Assembly: GCA_938009735.1 (NCBI GenBank)
Contig: CALLIG010000004.1
Span: 1-32,983, forward strand
Source of the DNA: an uncultured Flavobacteriaceae bacterium
Lineage (GTDB): Bacteria > Bacteroidota > Bacteroidia > Flavobacteriales > Flavobacteriaceae
Length of the DNA: 32,983 nucleotides
Reading direction: 5' to 3'
Below, one piece after another: positions 1 to 21,227 of this stretch; within the stretch, counting starts at the first letter, position 1; the number at the start of each line of letters is the position of its first letter. The position numbers and the translations under genes are program-made. The notes under the pieces are model-generated. The model made no database searches. It worked only from the letters and a program-made list of their open reading frames with translations, and was not told where the DNA came from.

Positions 1-243
1 GGACAACCGTTTAGAGCAGGTACACCAGCTTCATTCGGACAATCATCATCTTTATCTGCGATTCCGTCACCGTCAGCATCTGGGCAACCCGCCAATTCAG
101 CAAGACCAGCTTCATTTGGACAAGTATCATCTTTATCAGCAACTCCGTCACCATCGCCATCTGGGCAACCACCAAGGGCGGCAAGACCAGCTTCATTCGG
201 ACACGCATCGTCACTATCGGCAACTCCGTCTCCATCTGCATCT
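1..243 (-). repeat. 81-bp (27-codon) in-frame tandem repeats encoding TSP3-like Ca-binding units
   Basis: The ggRcaacc unit recurs at about 1, 82 and 163, exactly 81 bp apart. Each unit encodes D(A/G)DGDG(V/I)AD(K/S)DD.CPNEAG....G.CP. Confidence 0.85.
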
Positions 244-1307: not shown

Positions 1308-1406
1308 CGATTAAAAGCATAATGGTTCGGTGAAATGAAAAACGATGAATATACTTTCATCGAAGCTTTTTTGCACTTTATCTTAAGTTGTGTCGATTAC
1401 CGAAAA
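1308..1406 (+). promoter_or_regulatory. Conserved upstream block (copy A): CGATTAAAA-N11-CGGTGA-N40-CACTTTATCTT-N13-TACCGAAAA
   Basis: Same four motifs with identical spacing at 14229-14327, upstream of a paralogous gene. Hand count about 64/99 identical, ungapped. Confidence 0.6.
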
Positions 1407-1486
1407 TAGAGGATTCTTCGACGAATGAGAACCTATCAAAGTACACTTGCGCGAGTTATTATTATTATTATAACAAAACGCAAGAC

Positions 1487-1741
1487 ATGAAAACTATAAT
1501 CACTTTAATATTTGTTCTTTTTATCTCAGTTGCCGCACAAGCTCAAAACAATACCAAAGACTTTAAAGTAGAGACTATCGAAATGAATATAGTTACTTTG
1601 ACTTTTATCGAAGAAGTTTCTTTTGAAGCATTTACTACAGGGAATGAAACTGAAGTTGCGCGTTTATACAAATTCAAAAACTCAAGAATTAAAAAAGCGT
1701 TGACTTTTATTACTAAAAGAAATAAAGCGAAAATGGTTTAA
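1487..1741 (+). CDS. Small exported protein (84 aa) with conserved cationic C-terminal tail, copy A
   Basis: MKTIITLIFVLFISVAAQAQ signal peptide. C-terminus ETEVARLYKFKNSRIKKALTFITKRNKAKMV is shared with 14403-14690. The track start at 1388 puts 33 residues before the signal peptide and is unlikely. Confidence 0.75.
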   Translation: MKTIITLIFVLFISVAAQAQNNTKDFKVETIEMNIVTLTFIEEVSFEAFTTGNETEVARLYKFKNSRIKKALTFITKRNKAKMV

Positions 1742-14228: not shown

Positions 14229-14327
14229 CGATTAAAAACATTTCTTGTCGGTGAGTTGTTTTTCACTTGAAGAACAGTCGTCGAGCATTTTCTTCACTTT
14301 ATCTTGATTCTTGTCAAGTACCGAAAA
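14229..14327 (+). promoter_or_regulatory. Conserved upstream block (copy B): CGATTAAAA-N11-CGGTGA-N40-CACTTTATCTT-N13-TACCGAAAA
   Basis: Co-linear and ungapped with 1308-1406. Confidence 0.6.
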
Positions 14328-14402
14328 ATAAGGCGTTTCAGCGATTCGAAAAGAGCTTTTCCCTTCATCTGAGGTTATATTTATGTAACCCAAGTCAATA
14401 TT

Positions 14403-14690
14403 ATGAAAGCTATTTTAACTATTCTTTTTGTTCTTATCTGCGGAGCTGCTGCTCTTGCAAACACTAGTAGCAATCAATTAGTGTTAAACCCTCAAATCGA
14501 AAATCATGATGAAATTAAATTTACTGAAGTGGGCACTAATTTGGTTAGTGGCATTGTTGTTGCTACCAAGTATAATGAAGTTGAAACGGCAACTGAAACT
14601 GAAGTGGCTCGTTTATACAAATTCAAAAATTCAAGAATAAAGAAAGCATTAGCTTTTACAACAAAAAGAAACAAAGCCAAAATGGCTTAA
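14403..14690 (+). CDS. Small exported protein (95 aa) with conserved cationic C-terminal tail, copy B
   Basis: MKAILTILFVLICGAAALA signal peptide; C-terminus ETEVARLYKFKNSRIKKALAFTTKRNKAKMA. Confidence 0.8.
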   Translation: MKAILTILFVLICGAAALANTSSNQLVLNPQIENHDEIKFTEVGTNLVSGIVVATKYNEVETATETEVARLYKFKNSRIKKALAFTTKRNKAKMA

Positions 14691-14714: not shown

Positions 14715-14834
14715 ATGATCTTAGCTACACTTTTAATATCGATTGCTCTTGTTGGTACTGCTGTCTTCGTTGCGAAGAAACAAGCATCAAATGTACGACC
14801 AATAAAAGTTCGTGTTAAGAACAACAAACGATAA
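14715..14834 (+). CDS. 39-aa putative single-pass membrane miniprotein with basic tail
   Basis: MILATLLISIALVGTAVFVAKKQASNVRPIKVRVKNNKR*. 24 nt after the preceding ORF and before a + strand terminator. Below the track's length cutoff. Confidence 0.5.
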   Translation: MILATLLISIALVGTAVFVAKKQASNVRPIKVRVKNNKR

Positions 14835-14922
14835 GTGATAAAATATTATATTAGCCTATAATGCTCTGAATGTGCCGCGTAGGTGGGAAAATTATAGTCC
14901 CCTCACACTATTTAACCAGAAT

Positions 14923-20012: not shown

Positions 20013-21227
20013 TTAGGCCAATGAAGGCAGTTGTGGATGAATTTCTTTAAACTTTACAATGTAGTGGGTTCCTTTTCTTGTAATATCTCGTGCAACAGAT
20101 CCACGTAGTTGTCTGGCTAGGTTATGAATAAGCTTAAGACCAAGAGATTTAGTAGTTTTATGATTGATAGTTTCAGAATACCCAATACCAGTATCACCAA
20201 TATTTAAAAGATATTCATCATTCTCACCTTTTCGAAGCTTGATGAAAATATGCCCTTGACTATCATCTGCAATTCCGTATTTAAGCGCATTGGTAACGGC
20301 TTCATTGATCAATAAACCTAGTGGAACCGCCGTATCAATATTTAATTTCACATCAGGTATATCTATATCTAAAGTGATATTGCTACTTGTGCCTTTTATA
20401 GAACGTACTAGGTATTCAGCTAGTTCTTGTACATAAGATTTGTAACCTATTTTTGAAATATCTTCTCGCATGTATAACATTTCATGTACCATCGCCATTG
20501 ATATTACACGATTTTGACTATTCTTCAATAGATCTTTAGTAGCATCATCAGGCGCGTTTCTAGATTGTAAACTAAGTAGACTAGAAACCGTTTGTAAGTT
20601 GTTCTTAACTCTGTGGTGAACCTCTTTCAATAAGGTTTCTTTCTCATTGATTTTACCCTCTAGTGCATTTTTGGTTTTGTACAAATTATGATGGGCATGA
20701 AGAAGATTCTTTCCGAAGACACCACCAAGCAGATATACCGAAAATAGAACGCTTAATAACGCGAATATATCTTTTGATTTATCAGGAATAACATTCGTTA
20801 CAAAACTAAACTCAGAGATACTTTGAGAGTAAATTAAAACGATGATTAATAGGTTTAAGTTTAAATAAAGGGAGCCGTAGGCCTTGGTCGTCACATAGCC
20901 AGCAACTACTATAAGTGCTAGTACAAATATAAAAGGACTGTTAATTCCACCGCTATAGAGCGTTATTATAGTCGCGCCTGCAAGGGTCATTACAGAAACA
21001 ATATTATAGGTAAGTGTAAGGTTTTTGTGATAATGGTAAAGGATAGCGTTCATTAAATTCAAGGTCCCGAAGCCTAAAAACACAAAAGGAATTACTTCTG
21101 TAATATCTAATGCAAACAAGCATATGCAACTGAGTAGTATAGAAAAAACAGAGGTAAAGTAATTGACACGCTGAACTAAACGTGCTTTACTCTTTAATCG
21201 ATCGTTTGGTTTATTCTCTTCTTGCAT
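20013..21227 (-). CDS. Membrane sensor histidine kinase (HisKA_2 type)
   Basis: Multiple TM segments, then LLKEVHHRVKNNLQTVSSLLSLQSR, and HATPase region (PLGLLINEAVTNALKYGI ... GDTGIGY ... SLGLKLIHNLARQLRG). Confidence 0.88.
   Translation of the reverse strand: MQEENKPNDRLKSKARLVQRVNYFTSVFSILLSCICLFALDITEVIPFVFLGFGTLNLMNAILYHYHKNLTLTYNIVSVMTLAGATIITLYSGGINSPFIFVLALIVVAGYVTTKAYGSLYLNLNLLIIVLIYSQSISEFSFVTNVIPDKSKDIFALLSVLFSVYLLGGVFGKNLLHAHHNLYKTKNALEGKINEKETLLKEVHHRVKNNLQTVSSLLSLQSRNAPDDATKDLLKNSQNRVISMAMVHEMLYMREDISKIGYKSYVQELAEYLVRSIKGTSSNITLDIDIPDVKLNIDTAVPLGLLINEAVTNALKYGIADDSQGHIFIKLRKGENDEYLLNIGDTGIGYSETINHKTTKSLGLKLIHNLARQLRGSVARDITRKGTHYIVKFKEIHPQLPSLA

Follow-up and report, generated by a model that had tools for sequence, protein, structure and literature searches.

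Introduction

The DNA sites of LytTR response regulators consist of two repeats of 9-11 nt with 11-13 nt between them, and the sites of different members share no common consensus (PMC4847170). In Escherichia coli, the LytTR regulator YpdB recognises GGCATTTCAT as a direct repeat (PMC4847170). A search of the open literature returned no described LytTR motif for Flavobacteriaceae. Here we analysed a window of 32,983 nt, a stretch of DNA from an uncultured member of this family, in which two non-coding blocks (1308-1406 and 14229-14327) stand upstream of two small-protein genes. We consider it probable, at roughly two chances in three, that these blocks belong to a LytTR-type operator.

Results

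Two blocks in the window share a six-site array

The original prediction described four motifs at identical gaps, and both blocks indeed matched the pattern CGATTAAAA-N11-CGGTGA-N40-CACTTTATCTT-N13-TACCGAAAA exactly. The identity of about 64/99 without indels, counted by hand, was recomputed as 64/99 in the ungapped alignment, while the runner-up ungapped match of the first block in the window reached 45/99 on the plus strand and 46/99 on the minus strand (mean 27, sd 4.5). In the assembly of the same genome (3.99 Mb, 390 contigs, 85% complete), CGATTAAAA-N11-CGGTGA occurred exactly twice, compared with 0 occurrences of the reversed control. The block is unlikely to be coding, because the spacers diverge and because of the site pattern described below.

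The exact gapped string was absent from the 59 other genomes scanned (0/59), and profiles were therefore used for the relatives. The scan proposed earlier thus failed for the letters but succeeded for the site pattern and its spacings, which were kept across the promoters of the family; loss of spacing in other genomes, named beforehand as a result that would count against the prediction, was not what we saw. The complete identity of the motifs held within this pair, but not across the family, in which the pattern and spacing were kept and the letters were not. In the upstream regions of homologues the alignment was near-gapless from about -180 to the ATG, so the 99-nt unit was conserved but had been drawn too small; downstream of the block, the conserved unit adds one further site and a promoter-proximal inverted repeat.

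Conservation was concentrated in six short sites, A to F, with CG cores near alignment columns 19 and 39 on the plus strand and near columns 73, 94, 113 and 134 on the minus strand. All six followed a single motif, CG[A/G]TNA[A/G], with A-B on the plus strand and C-D-E-F on the minus strand. They formed two opposed runs of direct repeats, with 19-21 bp, or about two helical turns, from site to site within each run. Profile self-comparison recovered lattice periods of 20/21/19/21; direct repeats appeared at 20, 21, 19 and 40 columns, and the two runs matched each other in inverted orientation. The best direct pair scored 6.73, and the maximum in column-shuffled controls was 4.78 ± 0.44 (largest 6.15). 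All six sites were present in 39 of 75 non-redundant promoters, compared with 0.8 in shuffles.

In the first copy, the homologous-promoter profile placed site A at 1308-1318 (plus strand, profile columns 19-29), B at 1328-1337 (plus, columns 39-48, 20 from A), C at 1355-1363 (minus, columns 66-74), D at 1374-1385 (minus, columns 85-96, 21 from C), E at 1396-1403 (minus, columns 107-114, 19 from D) and F at 1416-1425 (minus, columns 127-136). The same profile placed the sites of the second copy at 14229-14239 (A) and 14249-14258 (B) on the plus strand, and at 14276-14284 (C), 14295-14306 (D), 14317-14324 (E) and 14336-14344 (F, also by the homologous-promoter alignment) on the minus strand. The four motifs noticed earlier, CGATTAAAA, CGGTGA, CACTTTATCTT and TACCGAAAA, correspond in this order to sites A, B, D and E; they were real, but they are copies of one motif and not four different elements. 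Site C sits in the N40 gap, site F lies just 3' of the block, and site E shows the greatest divergence among the six. The resemblance to a -7 box seen inside CACTTTATCTT did not hold up, as CACTTTATCTT is one copy of the array's own site.

The strongest form of the site was TCGATGAAATGCAC, with the reverse complement GTGCATTTCATCGA, and site A had the form TCGATGAAATGCAC in promoters of Muricauda and Flagellimonas. In one genome (G014), three paralogous promoters (L032, L039 and L040) were near-identical from site C to the ATG and differed upstream, around A and B, which suggests that part of the promoter was copied or recombined together with the gene.

The array precedes a family of small secreted proteins

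The genes downstream of the arrays encode proteins of 84 aa (1487-1741, plus strand) and 95 aa (14403-14690, plus strand), each with an N-terminus resembling a signal peptide and with a basic, conserved C-terminus, RLYKFKNSRIKKAL.F.TKRNKAKM. Searches of Pfam and NCBIfam with the small proteins returned no family, and the AlphaFold model of the 95-aa protein was of low confidence (pLDDT 56, pTM 0.22), with only the signal helix modelled confidently. Of 15 genomes of the genus, 14 contained homologues, as did 3 of 22 other genera sampled across the family. Multiple copies were frequent, and nine were detected in a single genome (G012). Named genomes carrying the family were those of Maribacter, Arenibacter, Zobellia, Muricauda/Flagellimonas, Cellulophaga, Eudoraea, Muriicola, Pricia, Kriegella and Ulvibacterium.

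Searching 60 genomes with a sequence-only array model gave 51 matches at E < 1e-8. Fifty of them lay directly upstream of a gene of this family, and the remaining one was cut by a contig end. The same genome held at least two further array copies with a gene start, at the ends of contigs C202 and C209, and a few family genes had no recognisable array (e.g. G009:C12:81466). Wherever the locus could be read, the array stood upstream of the gene, next to a putative promoter.

The neighbouring genes were also considered as a source of the regulator. They contained no consistent transcription factor, and the neighbourhoods were plain synteny, with an M23 peptidase, a GDSL hydrolase and FtsX on one side and an amidohydrolase, an M14 peptidase, a HisKA_2 kinase and SecA on the other. 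The HisKA_2 histidine kinase of the window is encoded at 20013-21227 with no response regulator adjoining, and in Pricia, Kriegella and Arenibacter loci (L124, L104 and L154) its orthologue is located no more than about 2 kb from a small-protein gene. Directly after the second small-protein gene, at 14717-14836, there is a 39-aa ORF with one likely membrane helix, and no relative of it was found in the neighbourhood loci. At the left edge of the window (11-241, minus strand), Asp-rich repeats (GCPDADGDG-like), read by eye, seem similar to the thrombospondin type 3 repeats of a surface protein.

An inverted repeat lies between the array and the ATG

The -7 box of Bacteroidetes is TAnnTTTG. A TAnnTTTR element was found near the ATG in many homologues, and the other two promoter types fitted poorly, so that the -7 match was weak in two of three types. 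In the first copy, an inverted repeat, CTTGCG...GTTAT...ATAAC...CGCAAG, was read in the sequence at 1446-1484 (plus strand), next to the presumed promoter. In the second copy, the inverted repeat GGTTATATTTATGTAACC at 14373-14390 (plus strand), supported by sequence reading and homologues, contains TATATTTA as a candidate -7 element. The letters of this repeat varied among promoter subfamilies and the complementarity was kept, the outer arms being CTTGCG/CGCAAG, CTTGTG/CACAAG or CTTACG/CGTAAG and the inner arms GTTAT/ATAAC, GGTTA/TAACC or CGTTTTA/TAAAACG. The repeat may represent a short hairpin in the 5'-UTR or a palindrome in the DNA across the promoter.

The single site is enriched across genomes

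Weak matches to the array profile elsewhere were mostly at chance level, and they pointed to GTGCATTTCATCGA before other genes. With one mismatch allowed, GTGCATTTCATCGA exceeded its reversed control by 26 to 1 in G002, 24 to 0 in G014 and 15 to 3 in the genome of the window. This enrichment extended over the whole genus and some other genera, with little in most other families. Among the sampled sites, most were intergenic. A second copy at +20/+21 gave some signal, and offset -9 gave the largest. Judging by their sequences, the genes adjoining GTGCATTTCATCGA seem to encode lipoproteins and other secreted proteins, DUF1800 proteins, MreB and sensor kinases, of which the kinases alone were domain-scanned. 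The letters of the motif were found in the literature only for unrelated organisms, as judged by titles.

In three species, a partial array with D-F-like sites (L165, L166 and L167) was conserved upstream of a gene for another secreted-looking protein (QVQQGFTPRF...), possibly a further target of the same regulator. In two genomes of genera without the array (G019 and G022), GTGCATTTCATCGA stood before a TPR/HisKA histidine kinase gene (L177, L234, L238 and L239), once more a sensor gene.

A LytTR response regulator co-occurs with the array

One enriched site in the genome of the window adjoined a LytTR response regulator gene, G000:C169:4033-4728 (hereafter C169), whose product has Response_reg and LytTR domains. 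The gene was followed by conserved tandem sites and then by a gene for a TPR/HisKA_2 histidine kinase, which suggests feedback. In 10 of 14 congeners, as in some other genera, tandem sites 20-21 nt apart followed this regulator gene; no such tandem was found beside the other 13 LytTR genes of the same genome.

A regulator of the C169 type, 86-100% identical, was present in 27 of 28 array-bearing genomes (89-100% across the genus and in G015, 86-92% in 13 further genomes); it was not found in the remaining one, G001, which is 57% complete. Among the array-free genomes, 34 of 35 had remote paralogues alone (40% identity or less), the exception being G004, which has the C169 type and in which no small-protein gene was found. 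The co-occurrence gave p = 1.6e-15, a value that is uncorrected for kinship and overstates the evidence because the array-bearing genomes form one clade and are not independent. Two control LytTR proteins had a distribution unlike that of the C169 type. GTGCATTTCATCGA was enriched in G019, G022 and G023 despite the absence of a C169-type regulator, and it was not enriched in Cellulophaga G061 (12 vs 20 in the control), though the regulator and the array are both present there.

Discussion

The block appears to serve as the regulatory region upstream of a class of promoters that is dedicated to a single small secreted-protein family of marine flavobacteria. Most likely, a signal would act through a kinase on a LytTR response regulator, which once phosphorylated would bind the phased repeats cooperatively and bend the DNA, and the bound array would then activate a weak promoter near the ATG. 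The C169 regulator may in addition be subject to feedback via the tandem sites after its own gene. This reading, in which activation is presumed, agrees with the earlier proposal of upstream activator sites at CGATTAAAA and CGGTGA.

The original prediction had left a choice between a regulatory DNA array and a structured 5' leader, and our results supported the non-coding DNA array and not the leader. In favour of a riboswitch-like or attenuator RNA, the inverted sites can pair on paper, five B-C pairs being kept in most sequences; yet this pairing arises solely from the presence of a single motif in both orientations. The consensus fold over 34 sequences had an RNAalifold energy of -0.64 kcal/mol, the co-variation of the inverted pair B-C equalled that of permuted partners (7.79 vs 7.79, z 0.1), so the covariance check revealed no conserved covarying secondary structure, and the block had no Rfam match. 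The same site also precedes many unrelated genes. We therefore rejected the structured leader, which is very improbable. The six sites might instead be the operator of a repressor or a nucleoid-type silencer that keeps the genes off until a signal releases its occupancy, and the inverted repeat that overlaps the presumed promoter speaks for this. Against such silencing, the sites would be placed 5' of the presumed promoter rather than across it, and the weak -7 match is like that of activator-dependent promoters; we regard repression as rather improbable.

C169 is the best single candidate for the reader of the array, and we propose it tentatively, at somewhat less than even odds. A serious competitor, which concerns the identity of the reader alone and overlaps with the LytTR-operator explanation, is that a core LytTR regulator of the family (L273:1081-1770, G000:C107), or several LytTR paralogues that overlap in specificity, read the array and C169 does not do so mainly; this too falls a little short of an even chance. 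Every array-bearing genome tested, and most of the others, had an orthologue of the core regulator (57-100% identity), and among genomes without the C169 type the enrichment of GTGCATTTCATCGA was higher when the core regulator was present (median log2 1.58 vs -0.34, p 0.03). However, enrichment was higher still where the C169 type was also present (median log2 2.95, p 0.035), no sites were found beside the core regulator gene, and this regulator also occurs in G024 and G028, which have neither array nor motif enrichment. Since the core regulator explains the enrichment in genomes lacking the C169 type, either or both regulators may read the array. Direct repeats about 21 bp apart are also bound by AraC-type proteins, and 2 of 100 neighbouring proteins were AraC-type, so an activator of another fold acting on direct repeats about two helical turns apart is conceivable. 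We consider it unlikely, as the site matches 9 of 10 bases of a proven LytTR repeat and conserved tandem sites adjoin a LytTR regulator gene.

Taken further, the LytTR reading would make the array a six-site, helically phased two-way operator for small basic secreted proteins, undescribed, clade-wide and many-copied, controlled by a feedback-regulated LytTR/HisKA_2 system that also governs more envelope and secreted-protein genes. This wider picture is plausible, but we hold it with less than even confidence. For LytTR signalling in Flavobacteriaceae, the analysis supplies candidate regulators along with a motif and a list of targets, and it draws attention to a small secreted-protein family, as yet unnamed, throughout the Maribacter clade. 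With six sites in place of two, the array would be a natural operator on which the cooperation of LytTR proteins could be tested.

Described LytTR operators consist of repeats of 9-11 nt, either direct or inverse, and the array agrees with this in having six sites that are direct within runs and opposed between them. The published gap of 11-13 nt corresponds to a period of about 20-24, and the periods of 20, 21, 19 and 21 lie at its short end, the D-E period of 19 falling slightly under the published range. GTGCATTTCATCGA holds 9 of the 10 bases of the YpdB repeat GGCATTTCAT, a match that is a lead and not proof, and could be partly coincidence, because LytTR sites share no consensus (PMC4847170). 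The YpdB operator at yhjX in E. coli (PMC4847170) is likewise made of direct repeats of similar length and comparable spacing, and it lies upstream of one target promoter, as the array probably does. Assignment to the YpdB operator proper was nevertheless rejected, as the kinase neighbouring the candidate regulator is of the TPR/HisKA_2 type and its best NCBIfam matches were far below the cut-off. The E. coli system belongs to a different phylum and has two repeats on one strand, a LytS-type kinase (YpdA) and a transporter as its target, whereas the array described here has six sites in two opposed runs, a candidate TPR/HisKA_2 kinase and a small secreted protein as its target. The operators of AgrA, VirR, PlnC and ComE share with it paired repeats of 9-11 nt that are 11-13 nt apart, but they differ in sequence and consist of pairs, not of six sites (PMC4847170).
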